Source: Pseudomonadota bacterium (lineage in GTDB: Bacteria > Pseudomonadota > Gammaproteobacteria > Burkholderiales > Sulfuriferulaceae). Taken from it: 39,155 nt of DNA. Numbering within the stretch: position 1 is the stretch's first letter; each line of letters starts with the position of its first letter. The translations under genes were made by a program, and so were the position numbers. The stretch spans positions 1 through 39,155 of the forward strand of contig JAJZUW010000012.1 of the NCBI GenBank assembly GCA_021845925.1, given 5' to 3'. Shown here one piece after another: positions 2,243-38,261 of this stretch. The notes under the pieces were generated by a model that made no database searches, was not told the origin of the DNA, and was given only the letters and a program-made list of their open reading frames with translations.

Positions 2243-3805
2243 TCACTTTTCACCGCGCATCCCGGCCAGATGCTGGCGGGCACGCGCCACCAGATCGGAA
2301 GGCAGGCCGTTTTTTTCGGCAATGATCAATCCGAGCGACTGGCCGGCATGTCCCAGTTCCAGCTGATAGGTTGGCGAAAGACTGTCAAAATCGAACTTCA
2401 TGCAGGCATTGGATAACCAGGTGTGCCGTTCGGCAAACCCTTTCAGTGGAGTCAGATGGGTGGTGACAATACCCATCACCCGCCGACCGGACAATTCGTC
2501 CAGCACGGCCATGGCAAGCGAGGCCCCCTCCTCCGGATCGGTCCCGGTACCCAGTTCATCCATTAATACCAGCGTATGATCATCGGCTTCGGTCAACAGA
2601 CGTTTCAGCACTTCGACGTGACCTGCAAAGGTGGACAGGTGGTGGTGAAGGCTTTGTTTGTCGCCAACGTCGACGATCACACGGGTAAAGTTGCCAACGG
2701 TGCAGCTGCCCTCGGCCGGCAGATGCAATCCGCAATGCGCCATGGTTGCCAGCAGCCCTGCCGTTTTCAGCACAACCGTCTTGCCGCCGGTATTCGGGCC
2801 GGTGATCACCAGCATGGGGTGTGTGGCGTCAAGATCCAGGCTGAGCGGCACCAGCCGGGAAATCTGGCGTTGCTGGAATTGCAGCAGCAATTGCGGATGA
2901 TAGGCCTGTTCCAGCTTGAGTACGGGTTGATCAACCAGTTCGGGTGCGCTGGCATTCATGGCAGCCGACAGCTGGCCGCCAGCCAGGGCCAGATCAACCC
3001 AGATCATTTCGTCGATCAGACGGTGCAGTGCAGGCAGATGATCGCGCAGCATGTCGGTAAGCTGGCGCAATACCAGCTGGTTTTGCGCTTCGATCTGACC
3101 GGAAATGGTTTCCAGCCGGTTATTCAGCGCCACGGCACCAATCGGTTCGACCAGGGTATCCCGCCCGCCTGCAGATGTACCACGCCGGACTCCCTTGATT
3201 TTTTCGGCCTGTGGCGTACGCACAGCCAGCACCCCGCGCATGCCATGCCATTGCACGGCCTGACTGCCATCAAACAATCCCCGGTTTTCCGCTGCACTGG
3301 TGACTGCCAGCAATGATTTTTCGACATCGGTGCGGACTTCGGTAAACCGGGCATGCAGTTCACGATGCGGTTCACTGGCATCTTCACGCAGTCGCCCCTG
3401 GGCATTGATGGCAAGATCAATGGCGGCAACCAGATCGCCAGGCATCAGCAGCATGGCAGGCTCGGCGCACAATCCGGGATGTCTTCCGGCCAGAGCGTGC
3501 AGATCGCCAGCAATCCGGACCACTTGCCGGACATGATGAAAGGCACTGGCCGACAACGCAGACCCGCTCTGGCCTGCCTGACGCAAGGCAGCGCGCACAT
3601 CCGGCACGTCGCCCAGACGTGGCATTTCGCCCGCAGCCACCAGACGTCTTGCTGCGCCAACCGAAGCCTGCATGGCGCGAGCAATGGTCAGATCCGGCGC
3701 TGGTTCGAGCTGATGCGCAGCATCGTTGCCATACGGTGTCAGCGCCAATCGGGCAAGTATCCGGCGAATGCCGTCAAATTCGAGGGTCTTGAGATCGCTT
3801 TGCAT
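2243..3805 (-). CDS. Short MutS2-family ATPase without Smr domain
   Basis: A 520-residue MutS-superfamily protein. The N-terminus (LKTLEFDGIRRILA) and core/lever helices match MutS2. The C-terminal ATPase has Walker A GPNTGGKT, the Walker B region LVLMDELGTGTDPEEGASL, and the dimer-interface threonine-histidine segment VTTHLTPLK. MutS2 proteins bind branched DNA or collided ribosomes rather than mismatches. Canonical MutS2 has about 780 residues, with a coiled coil and an Smr nuclease domain after the ATPase; here the frame ends shortly after the equivalent of EKNGLPSDLVARARQ. There is no visible frameshift, and the following DNA is intergenic with a tRNA promoter. It is either a naturally short subfamily or an old truncation. 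It is read in the same direction as, but well separated from, the flagellar genes. Confidence 0.88.
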   Translation of the reverse strand: MQSDLKTLEFDGIRRILARLALTPYGNDAAHQLEPAPDLTIARAMQASVGAARRLVAAGEMPRLGDVPDVRAALRQAGQSGSALSASAFHHVRQVVRIAGDLHALAGRHPGLCAEPAMLLMPGDLVAAIDLAINAQGRLREDASEPHRELHARFTEVRTDVEKSLLAVTSAAENRGLFDGSQAVQWHGMRGVLAVRTPQAEKIKGVRRGTSAGGRDTLVEPIGAVALNNRLETISGQIEAQNQLVLRQLTDMLRDHLPALHRLIDEMIWVDLALAGGQLSAAMNASAPELVDQPVLKLEQAYHPQLLLQFQQRQISRLVPLSLDLDATHPMLVITGPNTGGKTVVLKTAGLLATMAHCGLHLPAEGSCTVGNFTRVIVDVGDKQSLHHHLSTFAGHVEVLKRLLTEADDHTLVLMDELGTGTDPEEGASLAMAVLDELSGRRVMGIVTTHLTPLKGFAERHTWLSNACMKFDFDSLSPTYQLELGHAGQSLGLIIAEKNGLPSDLVARARQHLAGMRGEK

Positions 3806-26847: not shown

Positions 26848-28268
26848 GCATGTCGCATATCCGCTTTTACCGACTGATTTCCCTGCTGTCCATGTGCCTT
26901 GCCGGCTGTACACTGCCAGCCACTATTCCGGGCAATGCCCCGCAACCAGACCACTGGCTGCCGGCGGATGAAACACCAGCACGTGCAAGCACCAGCAACA
27001 CCCTGATGCCGACCCAATGGTGGCAAGGCTTTGCCTCTGCGCAACTGGATACCCTGATGGATCGCGCACTGCAACATAACCGTGATCTGGAAACCGCACG
27101 CGCTTCGCTGGCCGAAGCGCATCAGGTATGGCTGGCCAGCGCCGACAGCCAGTGGCCGCAGACAGACCTGCAGGCAGATGCCGGAAGACAGAAATATGGC
27201 CAGGCTCTGTTCGGGCCGGTGAATTTTGTCATTCCACCTTTCAGTTATGTCGAAGCCGGACCTGCCATCAGCTGGACGGCAGACCTGTCCGGCCGTCGAC
27301 GGGCCAGCGAAGCGCGCGCCCGCGCGCTGGCCGCTCATGAACAACATCGCCTCGATGCGACCTGGCTCATGATCAGCCAGCAGATTGCCATGCTCAGTTT
27401 TGACCTGGCCGAAGCGAAGGACGAACAAGATCTGCAACAACAGGTGACGGACATTGACCGGCGTCTGCAGGATCTGGTCAGGGAATCGCGGCGCGCAGGC
27501 TCAGCCACCCTGCCCGATGAAACGTCTGCTGCCGCGCGTCTGGACGCGGATCAGGCAGCCCTGCCGGAACTCGCACAACGCATCAGCCGCGACCGCCACG
27601 CACTGGCTGTGCTGCTGGGCAGCACACCGGACCAGCAACAACTGCCTTCGTTCCATCTGGCGGATTTCAGCCTGCCGGACTCGCCCGTCAACCTGCCTTC
27701 CGCACTCGCTCACCAGCGTCCGGACATACTTGCTGCCGAAGCCAGCCTGCAGGCGGCAGGTGCCGCCTGGGGCTATGCCAGCGCCAGCCATTACCCCGAC
27801 ATCACGCTCAGTGCCCAATGGCTGCAGGAGGCACTGACGCCGGCTGGCCTGTTCCACGCTGCCAATGCTGCCTGGGCACTGGGCGCCGGAATTGATCTTC
27901 CTCTTGCCGACGGCGGTCAGCGCGATGCACAGACCGAAGCGGCCCGTCAGGCCATGCTGGCCGCCCGGTCACAGTACCAGCAGATCGTGCTGGATGCCTT
28001 CAGGCAGGTCGCCGACCAGCTGACAGCACTGGATCATGATCACCAGCTGGCAGAAGTCCGCCACCGGAGTCTGCTCGCATCGCAGGAACAGCTGGATACC
28101 GATCGCTTCCGTCTGCAAACCGGCGACGCAGGCCTGTTGCCGGAACTGATGGCTCAGCGCGCTTTGCTCGAAGCCCGCATGAACGAACTGCGGGCACGGC
28201 TGGACGGACTGCGCGACAGCGCCGGGCTGCTGGTCAGCCTTGGCGGATCACGTCTTCCGTCTCGCTGA
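26844..28268 (+). CDS. NodT/OprM-type outer-membrane efflux lipoprotein
   Basis: A 474-residue outer-membrane factor of the RND/NodT lipoprotein class. The signal peptide ends in the lipobox LAGC, so the mature protein is acylated at that cysteine (about residue 22). The early motif TQWWQGFASAQLDTLMDRAL is typical, followed by two repeated halves of long helices and strands such as ALQHNRDLETARASLAEA and QRPDILAAEASLQAAGAAWG. It trimerises to a channel-tunnel. The start overlaps the pump gene as ATGA; an ATG two codons later is also possible. Its last 21 bases overlap the end of the convergent P-type ATPase gene. Confidence 0.94.
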   Translation: MSMSHIRFYRLISLLSMCLAGCTLPATIPGNAPQPDHWLPADETPARASTSNTLMPTQWWQGFASAQLDTLMDRALQHNRDLETARASLAEAHQVWLASADSQWPQTDLQADAGRQKYGQALFGPVNFVIPPFSYVEAGPAISWTADLSGRRRASEARARALAAHEQHRLDATWLMISQQIAMLSFDLAEAKDEQDLQQQVTDIDRRLQDLVRESRRAGSATLPDETSAAARLDADQAALPELAQRISRDRHALAVLLGSTPDQQQLPSFHLADFSLPDSPVNLPSALAHQRPDILAAEASLQAAGAAWGYASASHYPDITLSAQWLQEALTPAGLFHAANAAWALGAGIDLPLADGGQRDAQTEAARQAMLAARSQYQQIVLDAFRQVADQLTALDHDHQLAEVRHRSLLASQEQLDTDRFRLQTGDAGLLPELMAQRALLEARMNELRARLDGLRDSAGLLVSLGGSRLPSR

Positions 28269-30593
28269 CAGTCTGCGCAACACACTGACCTTGACCTGAT
28301 CAACCAGCAGCAGATAGATCACGACCACGACCAGCAGCATAGCCAGCCAGGCGAGAGGCACCGCAGTCATCAGGAGGCCCTGCGAGGCCAGCAGACAGAC
28401 CAGCAGAATATCCAGCACCGAAGCCAGAATCAGCCAGCCGCCCGGCCGCGAACGCCAGAAGTGGTCACGCTCGCGTACCAGATAGACATTCCCTTGACCG
28501 GTAAACACCAGCATCGCAAAAATCAGGGTTTGCAAACGGGCAAGCGGCACATGGAACACATCGCGTCCCAGCAGGAACACGCTGAATGACAGCACCAGCA
28601 CCATCGCGGCGAGCGCACCTGCTCCGGCCAGCAACCGGGGCACATTCCAGTGCTGCGGACGGGCAGGCGCCGTGACCCGGTCGGATGCAATGGACATGGT
28701 GACAAAATCATTGGTAAACAGCAGCAGCACCACCAGTCGCGGGGTAACGACAAACGTACCGGTCAGCATGAAACCGAAACTGAGAAAGATCGCAATTTCA
28801 ATGGTCTTCATGATCTTGTTCAAAATGTATGTAACCATGCGCTGATAAATCCGCCGGCTGGTTTCCACGGCAGCCAGCACATCCACCAGCCCGGGTCGCG
28901 TCAGCACCAGGCTGGCGGCCGCCTTGGCAACATCCGTGGCACTGGAAACCGCTATGCCGACTTCGGCCAGCTTGAGTGCTGGCGCGTCATTCACGCCATC
29001 GCCACTCATGCCGACAACCGCACCGGACCGCTGCAAGGCTTGCACCAGACGAAACTTGTCTTCCGGCAATACCCGGGCGAACACATCGTATCCGGATGCA
29101 TCGCCAGCCAGTGCCTGGGGCAACTGTTCTGGCGGACATACCCGGTTTCCGATGCCAACCTGGCCGGCAACCGCCCGCGACGTGGCCGCACCGTCTCCGG
29201 AAACCATCATCACGCGCACCCCGAATTCCCGCAGACTGGCGACCAGTCTTGCCGAATCCTCGCGTGGCGGGTCCTGCAAGGCAAGCAAGCCGGCCAGACG
29301 CAATGCCTGGCCCGGCTCGGCAACAGCCACCGCCAGCACACGTGCGCCATCGGCACCTTGGGATTCCACTTCGGCAGCCAGTTCCGCCGGCTCGGCCAGC
29401 ATGTGCATGATCGTGGCAGGCGCGCCTTTCATGACCCGCATCGCGCCTTCCGGCAACAGATAGTCAGCTTCCGATCGCTTAGTGGCCGGATCAAACGGCA
29501 CGAAACGCGTTCGCTGTGGCATGTTGTCCAGTGCCTGGCGATCACGAGCCACAGCCAGAATGGCCAGATCAATCGGGTCCTGCGTTGCTTCATCGCTGGC
29601 CATGGCGGCCAGACGCAACAGCGCTGCTTCATCCGATTTTGCAGCAGGCCGAAGACGCGTCAGCGTCAGGTGATTCATGGTCAGTGTTCCGGTCTTGTCG
29701 CTGGCCAGAACGTCCATCGAAGCAGCTTCTTCAATCGCGGACAACCGGGTTACCAGCACGCCGTTTCTGGCCAGTTCCAGCGCACCAAGCGCCGTAGCCA
29801 GCGTATAGGTGGCCGGCAAGGCAACCGGAACCGATGCGACAAGGAGCATCAGGGCGAACGGCAGAATGTCGGTTAGCGGCATGCCGGTCAGCCAGGCATA
29901 GGCCAGCATGCAGACGGCCAGCGCAATATCGACCACCACCAGATATCGAACAATGGTAAAAATCAGGGTTTCGAGATGACTCGCCGTTCGTGCGCCACGC
30001 ACCAGCTCGGCCGTTTTGCCAAATCCGGTTGCAGTACCGGTTGCCACAACGTCACCGGAAGCTTCGCCACGCTGGACAACCGAACCAGCACGTGCGGTGC
30101 TTCCTGCGCCGGCTTCAACCGGCAGCGATTCGCCGGTCAGGACAGACTGGTCAATCTGCAGGTTGCCGTCAGTCAGCAGTATGTCTGCCGGCACCATGTC
30201 GCCCATGCGCAGGTGCACGCGATCACCGGGCACCAGTTCCCGCGATGGCAACAACTGCCAGTGCCCGTCGCGTCGCACGCGAACCTTGATTTCAAGCCGT
30301 TGCCGCAACAGTGCCAGCGCGCGACTGGCACGCCCTTCCTGCACGAAACCAAGCAGAGCATTGAACACCAGCAACACACCAATGATGATGGCTTCATCCT
30401 GTTTGCCCATCACCACCTGCAACGCCATGGTCGCTTCCAGCATCCAGGGCACTGGCGCCCAGAATTTCTTCAGCAGCAACCAGACGGCTGGTGGCCGCTT
30501 TTCCACCACTTCGTTGTAGCCAGAACGAACCCGCCGGCGCGACACTTCCTCGCTGTCAAGACCACCCGAATCCCGCGCGGTTTCCGCAGACAT
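28248..30593 (-). CDS. P3A-type proton-pumping P-type ATPase
   Basis: About 781 residues, resembling plasma-membrane H+-ATPases of plants and fungi and their bacterial relatives. The order is an N-terminal cation-ATPase domain, two helices (WMLEATMALQVVMG, AIIIGVLLVFNALLGF), an actuator domain with LTGESLP, the phosphorylated aspartate D299 in DKTGTLTMN, and a hinge with GDGVNDAPALKLAEVGIA. Six C-terminal helices follow. The M6 region FTNDFVTMSIASDRV keeps the asparagine-aspartate pair expected of proton pumps. There is no N-terminal heavy-metal domain. The ATG at 30593, five bases after GGAGAG, is preferred over one at 30614. It could aid cytoplasmic pH control; the proton specificity is inferred from family. 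Confidence 0.9.
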   Translation of the reverse strand: MSAETARDSGGLDSEEVSRRRVRSGYNEVVEKRPPAVWLLLKKFWAPVPWMLEATMALQVVMGKQDEAIIIGVLLVFNALLGFVQEGRASRALALLRQRLEIKVRVRRDGHWQLLPSRELVPGDRVHLRMGDMVPADILLTDGNLQIDQSVLTGESLPVEAGAGSTARAGSVVQRGEASGDVVATGTATGFGKTAELVRGARTASHLETLIFTIVRYLVVVDIALAVCMLAYAWLTGMPLTDILPFALMLLVASVPVALPATYTLATALGALELARNGVLVTRLSAIEEAASMDVLASDKTGTLTMNHLTLTRLRPAAKSDEAALLRLAAMASDEATQDPIDLAILAVARDRQALDNMPQRTRFVPFDPATKRSEADYLLPEGAMRVMKGAPATIMHMLAEPAELAAEVESQGADGARVLAVAVAEPGQALRLAGLLALQDPPREDSARLVASLREFGVRVMMVSGDGAATSRAVAGQVGIGNRVCPPEQLPQALAGDASGYDVFARVLPEDKFRLVQALQRSGAVVGMSGDGVNDAPALKLAEVGIAVSSATDVAKAAASLVLTRPGLVDVLAAVETSRRIYQRMVTYILNKIMKTIEIAIFLSFGFMLTGTFVVTPRLVVLLLFTNDFVTMSIASDRVTAPARPQHWNVPRLLAGAGALAAMVLVLSFSVFLLGRDVFHVPLARLQTLIFAMLVFTGQGNVYLVRERDHFWRSRPGGWLILASVLDILLVCLLASQGLLMTAVPLAWLAMLLVVVVIYLLLVDQVKVSVLRRLSARRKT

Positions 30594-30821
30594 GGCACTC
30601 TCCGTTTGACGCAATGCTGTCCATTATCACCCGACAGGCTGTCAGCAGCTTGAAAACCCAATCACCCTTTCCTTGACAATGGTTTAAAAAATGATAACAC
30701 TTGGCAACAGGCAGTATGACAACGATTCGAATGCCAGCCCGGTTCCGGCTGGCGCAAGCGGTCCCTTTCAAAACACAATTCACCAGCGCGACCGTTCCTG
30801 GTCCGACTGCGGGGAGACGCC

Positions 30822-32435
30822 ATGAAAATTGCCCAAAAACTGCCTCTGGTTCTGGCCCTGTGTGTGCTGCTGTCAATAGGCAGCGGACTGTATGGCATTT
30901 TCAGGCTGGCCGATCTGGCCAGACAATATGACGATATCATCCGCGTGGACTATGGCAACGAAATCATCGTTGACCGCATGCTGCTGGATTTCAAGATCCA
31001 GGTCCAGAACTGGAAAGACACCTTGCTGCGCGGGAAGAATCCCGCCGCTTTCGATAAATACTGGAATGCCTTCCTGAACAAGGAAGCAGACGTGCGCAAG
31101 GATGCAAGCGAACTGCAGGCCAACCTGCCGCCAGACAGCGAAGCCGCCGGACTGGTCAGCCAGTTTGTCGAGAATCATGTCACCATGGGCAACAACTATC
31201 GTCGAGGCCTGTCCCTGTTCAAAGCTGCGAATTTTGATCCGACCGCCGGGGATCGCAGCGTTGCCGGAATGGACCGCCCACCCACCAGAACCCTGCAGGC
31301 GGCCGGCAAGGCCATTCTGGCAACCACGCGTGCGCATCTTGAACAGATCCGCCAGCATCGCCAGTCGGTGGTGGCCTGGAGTCTGGCGCTCATGGCGCTG
31401 GTCGCCCTGCTGACCATCGTGCTGGCCTGGTGGCTGATTCGTGAAATCACCGGCCCTCTGCACCAGGCTGTTCAGATTGCCAGCCGGGTTGCAGATGGCA
31501 ACTTGAACACATTGCCGCAAGTGACCCGTGAGGATGAATTTGGCGAACTGTTGAACGCACTCGCAACCATGACCGGACACCTGGCCACAGTCGTCAGTCA
31601 GGTGCGTCAGGGTACCCATACCGTTGCGACAGCAACCGGAGAAATCAGCACAGGCAATCTGGATCTGTCCAATCGCACGGAAAAGCAGGCCGGCTCACTG
31701 GAAGAAGCTGCATCCGCCCTGGAAGCGATGACTTCGACCATCCGCCAGAGTTCGGACCATGCACATGAAGCCAGCGACCGGGCCAGACAGGCCACCGAAG
31801 TTGCCGAACGGGGAGGCGCAATGGTTGGCGATGTGGTGAACACCATGGTCTCCATCAACAATGCATCGCGCAAGATTGCCGACATCATCGGCGTGATTGA
31901 CAGCATTGCCTTCCAGACCAACATTCTGGCCCTGAATGCTGCTGTGGAAGCAGCCCGTGCCGGCGAACAGGGGCGCGGTTTCGCGGTGGTGGCCAGTGAA
32001 GTCCGCAATCTGGCGCAACGCAGTGCCAAAGCTGCCAAGGAAATCAAGGCTCTGATTGACGATTCGGTCAGCCAGGTTGAACTGGGCAACCACCAGGCAG
32101 GCCTGGCGGGTGATACCATGACCGAGATTGTTCACAGCATCCAGCAGGTGTCCAGCATCATCGATGACATCAGCCAGACCAGTCGCGAACAGAGCCGTGG
32201 CATGCAGGAAATCAATCAGGCCATCACCATCATCGACGAAAACACACAACAGAATGCCGCACTGGTCGAGCAGGCAGCAGCTGCAGCCAGATCGTTGCAG
32301 GATCAGGCCGTTACCCTGGAAAACCTGGTCGATGCCTTTGTTCTGGATGATGCGACAAGCCATCCGACAACAGCCAAGTCACCCATTACTGGCATGCATG
32401 CACCTCTGGCACGTCAGCTGCCTTCACGCGCCTGA
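30822..32435 (+). CDS. Methyl-accepting chemotaxis protein
   Basis: A 537-residue chemoreceptor. A membrane helix at about 8-28 is followed by a periplasmic helical ligand domain of about 150 residues, a second helix (about 188-208, SLALMALVALLTIVLAWWLI) and a HAMP domain starting at REITGPLHQAVQIA. The signalling hairpin has the conserved tip IGVIDSIAFQTNILALNAAVEAARAGEQGRGFAVVASEVRNLA, given here only to mark the family, at about residues 345-390. It gathers in arrays with CheA and CheW to steer the flagella. The C-terminus lacks the NWETF-type pentapeptide that tethers CheR/CheB. GGGGAG lies before the ATG. The ligand domain is a four-helix-bundle kind, ligand unknown. Confidence 0.93.
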   Translation: MKIAQKLPLVLALCVLLSIGSGLYGIFRLADLARQYDDIIRVDYGNEIIVDRMLLDFKIQVQNWKDTLLRGKNPAAFDKYWNAFLNKEADVRKDASELQANLPPDSEAAGLVSQFVENHVTMGNNYRRGLSLFKAANFDPTAGDRSVAGMDRPPTRTLQAAGKAILATTRAHLEQIRQHRQSVVAWSLALMALVALLTIVLAWWLIREITGPLHQAVQIASRVADGNLNTLPQVTREDEFGELLNALATMTGHLATVVSQVRQGTHTVATATGEISTGNLDLSNRTEKQAGSLEEAASALEAMTSTIRQSSDHAHEASDRARQATEVAERGGAMVGDVVNTMVSINNASRKIADIIGVIDSIAFQTNILALNAAVEAARAGEQGRGFAVVASEVRNLAQRSAKAAKEIKALIDDSVSQVELGNHQAGLAGDTMTEIVHSIQQVSSIIDDISQTSREQSRGMQEINQAITIIDENTQQNAALVEQAAAAARSLQDQAVTLENLVDAFVLDDATSHPTTAKSPITGMHAPLARQLPSRA

Positions 32436-32463: not shown

Positions 32464-33120
32464 TCATGAACGGCGAGTATGCGCTTGCCACTCGGCAACG
32501 CCATCGGTCAACTGGTCGGCTCTGTAGCCATGCTGGCGCAACAGGTCTACAGCATCGCGTGCCATCAGGCAATAAGGGCCGCGACAATACGCGACGACAG
32601 GCATTTCGCGGGGGATTTCATCCAGACGGCCGGCCAGTTCATCCAGCGGCATGGAACGCGCAAATGGCAGATGTGCGTGCCTGTATTCATCCACCGGACG
32701 GACATCGATGACGGTGACTTCGCCCGCCCTTGCCCGTCGCATCAGTCCGTCACGGTTACTGGGTTCGAGCATTTCCGGTTCGGCAGTCATGCGCTTGAGC
32801 GCCTCGCGCAACCCGGTCAACTGCTGTTCGGCCAGCGAGTGCAGCATGACCCAGAAATCGGCCACGCGGGGATCTGCCAGCCGGTAGAAAATCTGCTTGC
32901 CTTCACGTCGGGTTTCTACCAGATGCGCCCGGCGCAATTCGCGCAGATGCGCACTGGCGAGTTTCATGCTGATGGCTACTTCACTGGCCAGGCGATCGAC
33001 TGATTTTTCTCCCTGACACAGCACCTCAATCAGCTCAAGCCGCTTCGGACTGGATACCGCCTTGCCGATCCTTGACACGTGATCATACAGCATATCCTTG
33101 ATTTCGCGAGAATTTTCCAT
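32464..33120 (-). CDS. ArsR-family regulator fused to a rhodanese domain
   Basis: A 218-residue fusion. Residues 1-100 form an ArsR winged helix (SPKRLELIEVLCQGEKSV, then ISMKLASAHLRELRRAHLV and the wing RREGKQIFYRL). Residues 120-218 form a rhodanese domain (VIDVRPVDEYRHAHLPFARS, active loop YCRGPYCLMARDA). Only three cysteines occur: C35 in the regulator, and C179 and C184 in the rhodanese loop. In BigR/SqrR two regulator cysteines form a tetrasulfide on sensing persulfide; the second is missing here. The start at 33120 is preferred over 33141, which lies at the predicted transcription start. It is divergent from a persulfide dioxygenase-like gene, its likely target. Confidence 0.92.
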   Translation of the reverse strand: MENSREIKDMLYDHVSRIGKAVSSPKRLELIEVLCQGEKSVDRLASEVAISMKLASAHLRELRRAHLVETRREGKQIFYRLADPRVADFWVMLHSLAEQQLTGLREALKRMTAEPEMLEPSNRDGLMRRARAGEVTVIDVRPVDEYRHAHLPFARSMPLDELAGRLDEIPREMPVVAYCRGPYCLMARDAVDLLRQHGYRADQLTDGVAEWQAHTRRS

Positions 33121-33148
33121 CTTTACACTGTTACCTTCCATGGTCCGG

Positions 33149-33179
33149 ACAATCTATACAGGCCCCATTGCCTTGTCAA
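33149..33179 (-). promoter_or_regulatory. Promoter of the ArsR-rhodanese gene, with motif ACAATCTA over the -10
   Basis: On the minus strand TTGACA (33179-33174), a 17-base spacer and TAGATT (33156-33151) make a good sigma-70 promoter. The 8-mer ACAATCTA (plus-strand 33149-33156) covers the -10 box. The same 8-mer recurs in the divergent promoter region, which suggests autoregulation by the ArsR protein. Confidence 0.7.
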
Positions 33180-33230
33180 CCAGAGCGCCCGCTGGCACAC
33201 GCCAATCCGGTTCCCGGGCGAAATCCATCC

Positions 33231-33259
33231 TTGACAAAACCAGCAGTATTGCCTAGTCT
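33231..33259 (+). promoter_or_regulatory. Promoter of the persulfide dioxygenase-MFS operon
   Basis: A perfect TTGACA (33231-33236), a 17-base spacer and TAGTCT (33254-33259) lie about 50 bases before the ATG at 33309. The -10 is weak (3/6), so firing is likely to depend on conditions or to be easily repressed. Confidence 0.6.
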
Positions 33260-33264
33260 TGCCT

Positions 33265-33293
33265 TAACAATCTAACAATCTTTAGATCATTGT
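33265..33293. promoter_or_regulatory. Candidate operator: tandem TAACAATC plus partial palindrome
   Basis: TAACAATC occurs twice in direct tandem (33265-33272 and 33273-33280), creating ACAATCTA at 33267-33274. An imperfect palindrome ACAAT...ATTGT spans 33275-33293. The block sits on the expected transcription start of the plus-strand operon, where a bound repressor would block polymerase. The match with the divergent promoter makes the ArsR-rhodanese protein the likely binder. Confidence 0.55.
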
Positions 33294-33308
33294 CAATCAG
33301 GAGCAACC

Positions 33309-34064
33309 ATGTTTTTCAGACAACATGCAGGTGAAGCCGCTTCGCTGTCCTATTTCCTGGGTTGTGGCGGCAAAGGCAAAGCCATGGCGGTCGATGTCGT
33401 TGCCGGCGATGAAGCCTGGTTTCTCAGTGAAGCCGAAAAACAGGGTGTCAGCATCGAGTATGTCGTCGATACCCACATTCATGCCGATCACTATTCGGGG
33501 GGACGCAAGCTGGCAGAAATGTCTGGCGCCCGTTATGCCCTGCATGAATCAGCCCGCAACTCGGTTGCGTTCGACTTTTATCCGTTGCATGACGGACAGG
33601 TGCTGGAACTGGGCAACGTCAGCGTGACCATCCTGCACACGCCCGGACACACGCCCGAAAGCGTCTGTCTGCTGGTCAGTGACAACCGACGCGGCCCGGA
33701 ACCCTGGTTTGTTCTGACCGGAGACACGTTGTTTGTCGGTGCCGTCGGCAGACCGGACCTGCTTGGGCGCGAATCCGAAATGGCCGGTCAACTGTATGAC
33801 AGCCTGCATGACAAACTGCTTGCCCTGGCTCCCGAAACCGAAATCTATCCTGGCCATCAGGCAGGCAGCGTCTGTGGCGCCGGTCTGTCAGGAAAACCCT
33901 CGTCCACCATCGGGTTCGAATTGCGTCGCAATGCAGGTCTTGCCATGAATCGCCAGGCATTTGTCGAATGGCTGACTCGGGAAATACCGCCCCGTCCGGC
34001 AGACATGGACCGTATCGTCGCGGCCAATGTTGCCAGCACATTGCCGGAGCATCCATTTGCGTAA
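33309..34064 (+). CDS. ETHE1-like persulfide dioxygenase (MBL-fold)
   Basis: A 251-residue metallo-beta-lactamase-fold protein. It has THIHADHYSGG with H56, H58, D60 and H61, then HTPGHTPES with H114, D139 in TGDTLFVGAVGRPDL, and YPGHQAGSVCGAGLSGKPSS with H183. The GRPDL and PGH motifs and the expected iron ligands (H56, H114, D139) are those of ETHE1/Blh persulfide dioxygenases, which oxidise glutathione persulfide to sulfite. Unlike BigR-operon Blh enzymes it has no attached rhodanese domain; that activity may sit in the divergent regulator. An AGGAG site precedes the ATG. It is followed at once by an MFS transporter. Confidence 0.9.
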   Translation: MFFRQHAGEAASLSYFLGCGGKGKAMAVDVVAGDEAWFLSEAEKQGVSIEYVVDTHIHADHYSGGRKLAEMSGARYALHESARNSVAFDFYPLHDGQVLELGNVSVTILHTPGHTPESVCLLVSDNRRGPEPWFVLTGDTLFVGAVGRPDLLGRESEMAGQLYDSLHDKLLALAPETEIYPGHQAGSVCGAGLSGKPSSTIGFELRRNAGLAMNRQAFVEWLTREIPPRPADMDRIVAANVASTLPEHPFA

Positions 34065-34071
34065 CGACACC

Positions 34072-35361
34072 ATGGCAACACCGCCGGCAGCGGCATATCC
34101 ACGCGGCATCCGCGAAAACCTGAACCAGTTCATCCAGCAGGCGATCCAGGTGTTTCTGGTTGGCCTGGTCATCGGCATGGAACGCAACGTTCTGCCTGTG
34201 CTCAGCAACCAGTTTGGTGTGGCCAGCGGCTCGTTCCTGTATCTGATGGGGTTTGTCGTATCGTTCGGTCTGGTCAAGGGCATGCTGAATTTCGTGGCCG
34301 GACGGCTGTCGGAAAGGATTGGTCGCAAGAAGGTTCTGCTTCTTGGCTGGCTGGCCGCCTTTCCGATACCGTTCATGATCCTGTATGCCGACAACTGGAA
34401 CTGGATCATCGCCGCCAACGTGTTTCTTGGCATCAATCAAGGCTTCGCCTGGAGCATGACGGTGACCAGCAAGGCGGACATCACCCATCCATGGCAGCGC
34501 GGATTTGCCACCGGAATCAACGAATTTGCTGGTTATGCAGCCGCAGGCATCGGCGGACTGGCCACCGCATGGCTGACCTTGCGCTATGGCGCCCGTGAAG
34601 CCCTGGCCGGCTTCACCCTGGTGACTGCCGGCACCGGCCTGCTGATGGCGCTGGCATTCGTCCGGGAAACCCTGCCCTGGGCAACCAGCGAAAGCCGCGA
34701 ACGTGCGTCTGCCAATACCGGCCAATCCTCCGGCTGGGCGGAGTTGCCGGCGCATCCCGGCACACGAGATATTTTTGTCCTGGTTTCCTTTCGCCATCCC
34801 ACGTTTCGGGCATTGTGCCAGGCAGGGGTCAGCAACAAGATTGCCGACGCTTTGCTCTGGGTGCTGTTTCCGCTTTATCTGCACGATCAGGGACTCGATC
34901 TGCTGCAAACCGGATCCATCAGTGGCATTTATGCCCTGGTCTGGGGTGCAGCACAGCCCGCAACCGGCGCCTTGTCAGACCGTATTGGACGCAAGATTCC
35001 GGTTGTCGGCGGGCTCTGGCTGCTGGCTGCTGGTATTGCCAGCGTTCCGCTGGTGCATGATGCCGGTGGCTGGACAGTGTCAGCCATCGTGATGGGTCTG
35101 GGCATGGCGTTACTGTATCCGAACCTGATTGCCGCCATGACCGATCTGGCACCACCGCTTTGGCGCAGTTCGGCACTGGGCACATACCGTTACTGGCGTG
35201 ACACCGGCTATGCCATCGGTGCCATTGTGCTCGGTCTGACCGCACAAGCCAGTCATGCGCTGGCTGACGCCTTCTGGCTGACCACCGGCCTGCTGCTGCT
35301 TTCCGGCCTGCATGTCGCGGTGACAGCACGCGAGACGCACAATCCACGTCAAACCCGGTAA
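34072..35361 (+). CDS. MFS transporter linked to the sulfur-responsive operon
   Basis: A 429-residue major facilitator with about 11-12 helices. The motif A-like loop GRLSERIGRKKVLLLGWLAAF occurs after helix 2 and again in the second half as GALSDRIGRKIPVVGG. The frame extends upstream to 34027 inside the preceding gene, but the ATG at 34072, seven bases after the dioxygenase stop, is the natural start. Linkage makes it the likely exporter or importer of a sulfur compound made or used by the dioxygenase, such as sulfite or thiosulfate, but the substrate is not shown by sequence. Family members with this two-motif layout include many unassigned transporters. Confidence 0.88.
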   Translation: MATPPAAAYPRGIRENLNQFIQQAIQVFLVGLVIGMERNVLPVLSNQFGVASGSFLYLMGFVVSFGLVKGMLNFVAGRLSERIGRKKVLLLGWLAAFPIPFMILYADNWNWIIAANVFLGINQGFAWSMTVTSKADITHPWQRGFATGINEFAGYAAAGIGGLATAWLTLRYGAREALAGFTLVTAGTGLLMALAFVRETLPWATSESRERASANTGQSSGWAELPAHPGTRDIFVLVSFRHPTFRALCQAGVSNKIADALLWVLFPLYLHDQGLDLLQTGSISGIYALVWGAAQPATGALSDRIGRKIPVVGGLWLLAAGIASVPLVHDAGGWTVSAIVMGLGMALLYPNLIAAMTDLAPPLWRSSALGTYRYWRDTGYAIGAIVLGLTAQASHALADAFWLTTGLLLLSGLHVAVTARETHNPRQTR

Positions 35362-35468: not shown

Positions 35469-38261
35469 GTGCAAAACCTGTTGGTATCGCTCATGTTGTT
35501 TCTCGGCGGCATCGCTGCCTATGCAACTGTCCAGAATCTGGTCATTGGCCTGAGTCGACCACGCAGCCTGCCCCATCTGCTGTTTTCCCTGCTGTGCTTC
35601 GAATCCATTGTGTTCACGCTGTTCCGCATGGCCAGCCTGACAGCCAGCGATCCGGCTTCATATCTGCTGTCCACCCGCCATGAACTATCCATCATTGCCC
35701 TGTTCCTGGCCACATTCCCCTGGTTCGTCGCCGAATACACCGGCATACGTCTGACCAGCCTGTTGCGCCTGCTCACGTTTGGCTTCATGCTCATGCTGGC
35801 GGCCAACCAGGTTTCTCCCTATACCGTTCAGTTTGCTACCTTCACCGGTATCCGGACTATCCGGATGCCGTGGGGAGAAGTCCTGACCCAGGGCATCGGC
35901 CAGCCTGGAGGCTGGATGACGTTCGCCGTGATCAACCTGCTGGTCATGCTGAGCTATTGCGGATATGCCCTGTACCGGCATTACCAGCAGCACCGCAGGA
36001 TGCAGAATGTCTGGCTGCAGCTTGCATTCTGGTTTTTTCTGGCCAATATCGTCTGGGGAACATTGATCCGGTTATCCTTCATTCATGGAGTGAGTCTGGG
36101 TCCGATTCCTTTCCAGCTGCTGATCGTGACCATGGCCGCCGTCTTTTCTCATGAGACCATGCAAAAGCTGCACCAGTCGGAAAACAACATCCGTTCTATC
36201 CTGGAACACTCCGCCACCGGAATCATTGCATTTGACCCGAACAGTGGTCATATCACCAGCGCCAATTCAAGCGCCCTGCAGCTGACGGGCCTGGATAGCG
36301 TGATCGTCCATACGCTGAATATCCGCCAGATTCTGCATCCGGATGACCAGGTCCAGTTCGAGACCGAGCTGGAAAACCTGAAAGCCGGCCTCATCCGTGC
36401 CGCACACTGCGAATGTCAGGTCCGTCGTGCCGATGGCAGCTATCGCACGACAGAAAGTTATTTCTCGCCATTACTGGACAAAAGCGGCAGCAACACCGAA
36501 ATCATTCTCAACATGACGGACATCAGCGACCGCAAGCGTGCCGAAGCCGCACTCAAGGCAAGCGAAACGCGTTTTCGCAGCCTGTTTGAACGCTCGCCGA
36601 TGGGAATCTCGCTCAGTCAGGATGGCCGCATGCTGGATGTCAACCAGGCCTTCCTGTTCATGTTCGGTTATCAGAATGCTGTGGAACTGCAAGGCTCGCT
36701 GGTGATGAACCTTATTGCACCAAACTGGCGAAAACAGGTCAGCGAAATCATGGAACACCGTAAACTGAAAGGCCATGAGGACACCTCTTACGAAACCCGC
36801 TGTGTTCGCAAAGACGGCAGCGAGTTTCCTGTGTTCATCGCCACCAAACGCATCGATACCGAAGAAATTCCACTGACGATCGCCTATCTGATCGATTTTA
36901 CCGAACGCTTTGAGGCAGCAGCACGGATCCAGAATCTGGTCATGTTCGACCAGCTGACCCAACTGCCCAATCGCCAGCTGTTGCAGGACCGGATGCAGCA
37001 TGCCTTGCTGAGCAGCGCACGCAGCCGCCTGTTTGGTGCCATCCTGCTGATCGATCTGGACAATTTCAAAACCATCAATGACACCATGGGGCATTCGGCT
37101 GGTGATGGCGTGCTGCAGAAAGTGGCCGATCTGCTGCGCCAGCTATTTTCCGGCAGCGGCACCATCGCCCGTCTGGGCAGCGACGAATTTGTCCTGATCC
37201 TGGAGGGACTGTCGGCCGTGCGGCAGGAAGCAGCCAGCCAGACAGAGGCCGCCAGCACACGCATTTTCCAGGAAATCAACCGGCCACACCTGATCGACGA
37301 ACAGCTGATCCATACCTCGGCCAGCATCGGTGCCGCCCTGTTCGTCGGCAATGAGGTGCCGGTCGACACCCTGATGCGCCACGCCGACATCGCACTCCAT
37401 CAGGCCAAAACCGATGGCCGGAATGCATTGCGCTTCTTCGATCAACGCATGCAGGAACATGTCAGCCAGCGCGCGTCCCTGGAAAGCGACCTTCACCGGG
37501 CCATCGCCGAGGGCGAGTTCGAACTGCACTACCAGATCCAGGTTGACGAACTGGAACGCGCCATCGGCGCAGAAGCGCTGATCCGCTGGCGCCACCCCAG
37601 GCTTGGCATCATTTCGCCCATCCAGTTCATACCTCTGGCCGAGGAAACCGGCCTGATCCTTGCCTTGGGCGAATGGATCATCAACACGGCATGCACCCAG
37701 CTCAAGTCCTGGCAGAATTCACCGGCGACCCAGCATCTGGATCTGGCCATCAATGTCAGTTCGGTGCAGTTCCGCCGTGGTGATCTGGTCGGCACGCTAC
37801 GCGCCTGCCTGAACCGTCATGCCATCAATCCAAAGCACCTCAAACTCGAATTGACTGAAAGCCTGTTGCTGGAAGATATTGAAACCAGCGTCGGCATCAT
37901 GCAAGCCATCAAGTCGATGGGGATCCGCTTCTCGCTTGATGACTTCGGGACTGGTTACTCTTCCCTGCAATACCTGCGCCGTTTGCCACTGGATCAGCTG
38001 AAAATCGACCGTTCCTTTGTCAGCAGCCTGAGCGAAGCCAACAATGACCATGCCATTGTTCGAACCATCATTGCGATGGCAAACAATCTTGGACTGGATG
38101 TGATTGCCGAAGGTGTTGAAACATACGAGCAACACCAGATACTGCTGGACAGTGGTTGCCGGCATTTTCAGGGATATCTTTACGGCAAGCCCCTGACTGT
38201 CGTAGCATTTGAATCCATGCTCACCACCAGACCGTATACGGAAACGGACAACCCGACATGA
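35469..38261 (+). CDS. Membrane PAS-PAS-GGDEF-EAL cyclic di-GMP protein
   Basis: A 930-residue signalling protein. The N-terminal 240 residues hold about seven membrane helices. Two PAS domains follow (about 240-360, ILEHSATGIIAFDPNSGH, and 365-480, LFERSPMGISLSQDGRML). The GGDEF domain has the altered motif GSDEF at 570-574 and no RxxD site. The EAL domain at 702 has AEALIRWRHP, LELTESLLL, DDFGTGYSSLQYL, LKIDRSFV and GVETYEQHQ, all key residues. It most likely degrades cyclic di-GMP, with GSDEF serving as a GTP-binding switch or with weak synthesis. The start is a GTG with GGGAG seven bases upstream; an in-frame stop lies just before it. It overlaps the next gene by four bases. Confidence 0.93.
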   Translation: MQNLLVSLMLFLGGIAAYATVQNLVIGLSRPRSLPHLLFSLLCFESIVFTLFRMASLTASDPASYLLSTRHELSIIALFLATFPWFVAEYTGIRLTSLLRLLTFGFMLMLAANQVSPYTVQFATFTGIRTIRMPWGEVLTQGIGQPGGWMTFAVINLLVMLSYCGYALYRHYQQHRRMQNVWLQLAFWFFLANIVWGTLIRLSFIHGVSLGPIPFQLLIVTMAAVFSHETMQKLHQSENNIRSILEHSATGIIAFDPNSGHITSANSSALQLTGLDSVIVHTLNIRQILHPDDQVQFETELENLKAGLIRAAHCECQVRRADGSYRTTESYFSPLLDKSGSNTEIILNMTDISDRKRAEAALKASETRFRSLFERSPMGISLSQDGRMLDVNQAFLFMFGYQNAVELQGSLVMNLIAPNWRKQVSEIMEHRKLKGHEDTSYETRCVRKDGSEFPVFIATKRIDTEEIPLTIAYLIDFTERFEAAARIQNLVMFDQLTQLPNRQLLQDRMQHALLSSARSRLFGAILLIDLDNFKTINDTMGHSAGDGVLQKVADLLRQLFSGSGTIARLGSDEFVLILEGLSAVRQEAASQTEAASTRIFQEINRPHLIDEQLIHTSASIGAALFVGNEVPVDTLMRHADIALHQAKTDGRNALRFFDQRMQEHVSQRASLESDLHRAIAEGEFELHYQIQVDELERAIGAEALIRWRHPRLGIISPIQFIPLAEETGLILALGEWIINTACTQLKSWQNSPATQHLDLAINVSSVQFRRGDLVGTLRACLNRHAINPKHLKLELTESLLLEDIETSVGIMQAIKSMGIRFSLDDFGTGYSSLQYLRRLPLDQLKIDRSFVSSLSEANNDHAIVRTIIAMANNLGLDVIAEGVETYEQHQILLDSGCRHFQGYLYGKPLTVVAFESMLTTRPYTETDNPT

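Follow-up and report, generated by a model that had tools for sequence, protein, structure and literature searches.

An ArsR-rhodanese fusion regulator beside a probable persulfide dioxygenase operon, with a rhodanese-loop cysteine pair as candidate sensor

The locus considered here raises the question of where a sulfur signal would be read by a repressor whose DNA-binding fold holds a single cysteine. It lies on contig JAJZUW010000012.1 of a Pseudomonadota bacterium (39,155 nucleotides, the whole of which is referred to as the window). There, a 218-residue regulator made of an ArsR winged helix and a rhodanese domain (32464..33120, minus strand, 32464 being its stop end) is divergent from two plus-strand genes, one for a metallo-beta-lactamase-fold (MBL) protein, a probable persulfide dioxygenase without a rhodanese of its own (33309..34064), and the other, 7 bp behind it, for a predicted 429-residue transporter of the major facilitator superfamily (MFS; 34072..35361). 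This layout, already described in a first-pass annotation, was confirmed by the open reading frames (ORFs) and by Pfam, which assigns HTH_5 (E 6.4e-7) and Rhodanese (E 2.2e-10) to the regulator, Lactamase_B to the MBL protein and MFS_1 to the transporter. The published ArsR persulfide sensors described in the cited parts of PMC10509353 and PMC5823870 use a cysteine pair within the DNA-binding fold. For the window's regulator, the annotation had suggested uptake of sulfane sulfur by the rhodanese loop, which would either pass it to C35 of the winged helix or itself replace the missing sensor cysteine. That interpretation was borne out in part: the sulfur-linked locus and the rhodanese-loop pair held, and transfer to C35 as a mechanism of the family did not.

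The reading that we favour, and to which as a whole we give a probability of roughly 0.6, is the following. The ArsR-type repressor would bind a dyad at 33269-33288 and keep the dioxygenase-MFS operon silent. Sulfane sulfur, as persulfide or polysulfide, would be loaded onto C179, and a disulfide or polysulfide bridge would then be closed by C184 across the rhodanese loop, CRGPYC. The altered loop would act through the long alpha5 helix that links the rhodanese to the winged helix, so that the repressor leaves the DNA; the dioxygenase would then oxidise the persulfide, the MFS protein would export a product or a sulfur compound, and the signal would drop. Comparison among sequences supports the connection between regulator, dyad and operon among near relatives of the window, the invariance of the pair and the dispensability of C35. 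The dioxygenase chemistry and the repression are suggested by the families to which the proteins belong, and the ligand, the bridge, the allosteric route and the exported compound are what we infer.

Cysteines of the winged helix and of the rhodanese loop

Counted from the second ATG of the regulator, its only cysteines are C35, C179 and C184, exactly as first numbered (42, 186 and 191 in the longest ORF). The comparison covered 79 loci, an uneven sample consisting of genomes of the genus, near matches, an even draw from the phylum (43 loci, L081-L123) and 16 plasmids, the latter picked for taxon spread out of 60 listed among 198 matching records; L057, on the same contig as L021, was left out of all counts. 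One of two identical proteins among the 79 was dropped from the alignment, leaving 78 rows, the window's included. C179 and C184 are both invariant in these 78 proteins, and D139, R141, E145, Y178, R180, G181, G198 and W211 of the rhodanese domain (32482..32745, minus strand) are invariant as well. The two cysteines delimit the CRGPYC loop (32569..32586, minus strand), and a CRGxxC loop is present in 79/79 fusion proteins, window included. Other rhodanese domains differ: among the matches listed, 32 were aligned from seven genomes (six domains of the window's genome and 26 from six related ones), and none has a Cys at +5. Their loops, mostly CxSGxRS or close to it, keep the first Cys in 30 cases, and the loop of the fusion aligns as two residues longer. 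Because the tested thiosulfate rhodaneses need Arg, Thr or Ser at the end of a six-residue loop (PMC8533005, in the part cited), while the loop here is CRGPYC and ends in Cys, the domain is probably not a thiosulfate rhodanese. By their positions, C179 and C184 could form a bridge. The same two-cysteine spacing occurs in the CWGPAC loop of the BH2092 rhodanese (3nhv/3o3w), the first rhodanese found in the fold search, although its solved chains, of 113-144 residues, have no DNA-binding domain.

The codon of C35 (33016..33018, minus strand) lies within the winged-helix HTH_5 domain (32914..33051, minus strand), and a relay has to be considered in which the rhodanese loop takes sulfane sulfur and passes it to C35, the winged helix being the switch. 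Such a relay is consistent with the presence of C35 in the window's protein and in 14 others of the 78, all among the window's nearest relatives (identity at least 56%). However, position 35 is Ala in 53 of the aligned proteins and Ser in 6 (other residues in 4), and among the 26 that have MBL and MFS genes nearby it is Cys in 13, Ala in 11 and Ser in 2. At distances similar to those of the C35 carriers, Ser is found in L055 and L059, and Ala in L062, L022 and L023. Nor does C35 occupy the sensor position of SqrR, BigR and HlyU, whose alpha2 cysteine aligns with E32, three residues before it. The relay is therefore improbable, and sulfur transfer to C35 was rejected as a mechanism of the family, the residue being rarely Cys (15/78) and away from the SqrR/BigR position; C35 may still play some role in the window's protein alone.

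The alternative half of the earlier proposal, in which the rhodanese loop replaces the missing ArsR sensor cysteines, is favoured by the sequences, because the C179/C184 pair is invariant and 48 of the 79 proteins have exactly two cysteines and, therefore, no other sulfur acceptor within their chains (the same count of two is seen in 12 of the 27 with MBL and MFS genes beside them). That this pair is the sensor is, in our view, a somewhat better than even proposition. In 54 of the 78 aligned proteins all residues up to 113 are Cys-free, a fact that also bears on what the annotation 'metalloregulator ArsR/SmtB family transcription factor', carried by 54 of the 60 plasmid matches listed, would imply, namely a metal or metalloid sensor for which the rhodanese merely delivers or removes sulfur. 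The regulator does pass NCBIfam HTH_metalloreg (76 bits, cut-off 55) and metal genes occur in some loci, but the lack of N-terminal cysteines in most of the aligned proteins, together with an alpha5 metal site that, judged by eye only, is missing from the window's regulator, makes this very hard to credit.

SqrR, BigR and HlyU carry their two sensor cysteines in alpha2 and alpha5 (PMC10509353, PMC5823870, parts cited), and HlyU is reported to react with polysulfide and with neither H2O2 nor GSSG (PMC10509353, same part). The window's regulator shares with them the ArsR fold, the probable control of persulfide-oxidising genes, a predicted operator near the promoter and, as proposed, two-cysteine chemistry. 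It differs in that it has E32 at the alpha2 cysteine position and no Cys between residues 36 and 178, so that both sensor positions lack Cys, and the conserved pair is found in the fused rhodanese instead; with the BigR model it scores 59 bits, the cut-off being 155. One large network of the ArsR family omitted proteins longer than 150 residues, according to the part of PMC10509353 cited, and the fusion was therefore excluded from that network.

In a Foldseek search Mb0332 came first, with SqrR and BigR among the other ArsR proteins, while the C-terminal part retrieved BH2092 and dioxygenase-rhodanese fusions. Mb0332 (2kko/3gw2) is the best match of the winged helix in both sequence and fold and its closest solved relative, with 37-38% identity over the winged helix, the comparison being with a structure solved as fragment 1-100. 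Its ortholog in M. tuberculosis is presumably Rv0324. The role printed for Rv0324 concerns bedaquiline tolerance (PMC9480834, in the part cited). MBL dioxygenase-rhodanese fusions (3tp9, 3r2u) resemble the present system in that both domains belong to one system, but in the window it is the regulator that carries the rhodanese, and the dioxygenase has one domain only. We take CstB, Blh and PRF to be fusions of this type. A Rhodococcus MBL protein beside the regulator, of about 454 residues, also matches a rhodanese query. Finally, ChrB of Ochrobactrum likewise regulates transcription and has a rhodanese-like domain at its C-terminus, but it is a chromate regulator and is kept separate from ArsR in the part of PMC3817168 that describes it.

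The dyad and the dioxygenase-MFS operon

An operator-like dyad of 20 bp, AATCTAACAATCTTTAGATC, occupies 33269..33288, 20 bp before the ATG of the dioxygenase gene. A matrix made from 17 sites of near relatives, none of them from the window, finds its best match in the 39 kb precisely there, with 22.5 bits vs 9.3 for the next. The evidence for such a dyad came from the 120 bases before the regulator start, in which 20-bp dyads with ATTC...GAAT ends were scored against shuffles in 77 promoters (L055, at a contig edge, and L060, with a run of N, were left out). The dyad was found at p<=0.05 in 44 of them, about 4 being expected, and at the floor of 0.005 in 23; plasmid copies in Cytobacillus, Hymenobacter, Lactiplantibacillus and Leuconostoc are among those that pass. 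The template was picked after viewing 22 upstream stretches, which makes the overall count partly circular, and the dyad passes in 31 of the 56 promoters that were unseen at that time. A 20-bp dyad marking many of the family's regulator promoters appears to be new here.

Genomes in which regulator and operon are separated provide a further line of evidence. In G013 the two lie deep within two large contigs (C19 for the regulator, C11 for the operon), and in G009 on contigs C96 and C13, the genes flanking the regulator being the same as in G013. Both unlinked operons have a dyad, of 29.9 bits in G013 and 32.1 bits in G009 (the runner-up sites of these stretches reach 9.3 and 11.7), located 70 and 54 bases, respectively, before the dioxygenase start. 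The operon of G008, whose regulator and dioxygenase genes are at contig edges and possibly neighbours, has a dyad of 30.1 bits 49 bases before the dioxygenase. None of these three sites is in the matrix. As controls, three more distant MBL genes scored 1.8, 11.7 and 11.0 bits, and a second dioxygenase-MFS operon of G003 scored 7.4 and has no dyad; an unlinked dioxygenase gene in G203 has a weak site of 13.9 bits 18 bases upstream. The second operon of G003 (L135 2053-4450) has a single-domain ArsR-like gene (3324-3680) between its two genes, so that here an operon of this kind comes with another regulator.

The regulator has matches at E 1e-20 in 13 of 18 genomes of the same genus or family, and close relatives of the dioxygenase are found in the same 13, as fragments in G006. 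Among those without the regulator, G002 has only distant dioxygenase relatives (identity up to 42%), and G007, G010, G011 and G014 have none at E 1e-25. Elsewhere in the phylum, 42 other genomes with the regulator include 7 that hold a close relative of the dioxygenase (E below 1e-60), which in 6 of them is adjacent to the regulator. Exact copies of the pattern AWTCYAA-N6-TTRGAWT number 8 in the 18 genomes. Four precede the regulator (G012, G015, G016, G017) and had served to shape the pattern; three precede the dioxygenase (G008, G009, G013) and were known beforehand; the only new one is in G008, about 107 bases upstream of a DsrE gene. In the 5 genomes without the regulator there is no exact place. 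Allowing one mismatch, the 13 genomes with the regulator contain 38 places vs 8 for a backward control pattern, and the 5 without it 7 vs 6; a single 20.6-bit site in G002 falls inside an unrelated ORF. The family-type dyad in front of the dioxygenase gene, in linked and unlinked operons alike, thus supports by comparison the sulfur-linked locus that had been annotated, and control of the operon by the regulator through the dyad is highly probable.

Two tandem one-mismatch dyads were also seen in G013 (L182 3287-3331), between divergent DsrE and SAM-methyltransferase genes, which suggests a wider regulon with a sulfur carrier (DsrE) and a methyltransferase. Relatives of these DsrE and methyltransferase genes stand beside the regulator in 13/79 and 9/79 loci.

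As for the enzyme itself, the MBL protein has 251 residues and Lactamase_B as its only domain. It contains H56, H58, D60, H61, H114, D139 and H183, which we take to be the metal ligands (the HxHxDH, H, D set) of a persulfide dioxygenase; the ligand residues that had been annotated as intact are thus in place. The label 'ETHE1-like' was loose: among solved structures two MBL-rhodanese proteins match best, 3tp9 with 139 bits and 3r2u with 131 bits, human ETHE1 (4chl) reaching 60 bits, and a plain ETHE1 type was rejected on these scores. The protein also carries a segment like the GSxCGxxLxxxPSST of 3tp9/3r2u-type proteins, whose C189 is present in 31 of 32 aligned dioxygenase relatives, the remaining row being truncated; this residue presumably corresponds to a functional cysteine of CstB. 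The protein is not a Blh, in which a sulfurtransferase is fused to the dioxygenase, and scores 54 bits with that model (cut-off 625). Eight of the 32 MBL proteins (L068, L069, L071, L073, L079, L119, L120, L122) have both His in place of D139 and Ala in place of H183, a paired replacement that points to a variant metal site in proteins encoded next to this type of regulator.

Distribution of the fusion and breadth of its signal

The fusion is no oddity of this genome, a possibility that was rejected on its counts: at E 1e-20 it is found in 43 of 397 sampled genomes of the phylum, the window's own included, and at E 1e-15 it matches 198 plasmid records, 196 of them over at least 80% of the query, with plasmids of four other phyla among them. 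Seven genera of Lactobacillaceae account for 124 of the 198, and others include Rhodococcus, Deinococcus, Hymenobacter and Cytobacillus; phage records gave no match at E 1e-15. Since the fusion is widespread, and rhodanese-like domains in ArsR repressors are already mentioned in the cited part of PMC3817168, neither the architecture nor this instance is new. A test of sensing by an ArsR-rhodanese fusion was not found among the matches listed, as far as their accessible text goes, from the open-licence literature of PubMed Central.

Neighbour counts, which are lower bounds since loci cut by contig ends were kept in, place MBL and MFS genes together around the regulator in 27/79 loci, including plasmids of Rhodococcus, Deinococcus, Acidiphilium, Acidithiobacillus, Cytobacillus and Bradyrhizobium. 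Fatty-acid hydroxylase genes are near the regulator in 20/79 loci, mostly divergent (e.g., L067 3049-3900 and L080 3038-3886), and sometimes a gene for a VTT-rhodanese membrane protein is present as well. On two food-related plasmids, of Lactiplantibacillus and Leuconostoc (L075, L076), a dyad precedes the regulator, and the downstream cassette encodes thioredoxins, thioredoxin reductase, DsbA and a flavin oxidoreductase.

Several observations weigh against the reading favoured above. In the even draw from the phylum, MBL and MFS genes are near the regulator in only 6/43 loci, as opposed to 18/43 for the fatty-acid hydroxylase, and thioredoxin genes follow the regulator on the two Lactobacillaceae plasmids, so that the signal of the family may differ from sulfane sulfur or be wider. 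For the same reasons, the sulfur-operon reading fits, as far as gene neighbourhoods tell, the window's clade and several scattered cassettes, not the whole family. The dyad was not significant within the 120 bases before 33 of the 77 regulator starts, including the starts in G001, G003, Rhodococcus L066, Deinococcus L068, Bradyrhizobium L079 and the window itself, whose genome also holds five other one-mismatch places. The co-occurrence in 13 of 18 genomes is weakened because genomes of one genus share ancestry and are not 18 independent cases. Lastly, the AlphaFold model (nine sequences, mean pLDDT 79.9) shows a winged helix, a helix at 84-113 and a rhodanese, but its pTM of only 0.47 makes the domain arrangement unreliable.

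Part of these facts would be accommodated if the CRGPYC pair were a general redox (disulfide) switch responding to oxidants or disulfide stress, with sulfur genes as one of several outputs. The thioredoxin, thioredoxin reductase and DsbA genes of the Lactobacillaceae plasmids and the fatty-acid hydroxylase neighbours argue for it, and so does a loop without the usual CxxGxR, the last residue of which the thiosulfate rhodaneses tested in PMC8533005, as cited, need. Nevertheless, the dyad is found before dioxygenase and DsrE genes within the clade of the window, and we consider such a switch unlikely, though clearly the strongest competitor. That the regulator responds to sulfane sulfur appears probable. 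The broader proposition is tentative and falls just short of even odds: that a rhodanese active-site loop, rebuilt as a two-cysteine CRGxxC switch, provides the effector domain in a large class of ArsR repressors spread over several phyla, in which sulfane-sulfur sensing has moved off the DNA-binding fold, separately from SqrR/BigR. Were it true, a widespread class named 'metalloregulator' would include sulfur sensors; the dyad allows their likely targets to be listed in related genomes.

Gene calls and surroundings

The genes next to the locus are a P-type ATPase (28248-30614), a HAMP and MCP chemotaxis protein (30822-32435) and a PAS-GGDEF-EAL protein (35469-38261), and their link to the sulfur locus is not evident. 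No RNA element was matched in Rfam at gathering scores between 32000 and 36000, the intergenic region included. Upstream of the dioxygenase gene, a promoter-like TTGACA-17-TAGTCT (33231..33259, plus strand) was recognized by eye just before the dyad; its -10 is weak and it is absent from the list of the promoter scan. The scan did report TTGACA-17-TAGATT for the regulator (33151..33179, minus strand). The longest ORF of the regulator begins at 33141 and has 225 residues, the upstream ATG adding seven; the second ATG (33118-33120) was adopted as the start because relatives start near there and the promoter-like site ending at 33151 leaves a leader of about 24 bases. For the MFS gene, a start at 34072 is more plausible than one at 34027, which falls inside the dioxygenase gene.

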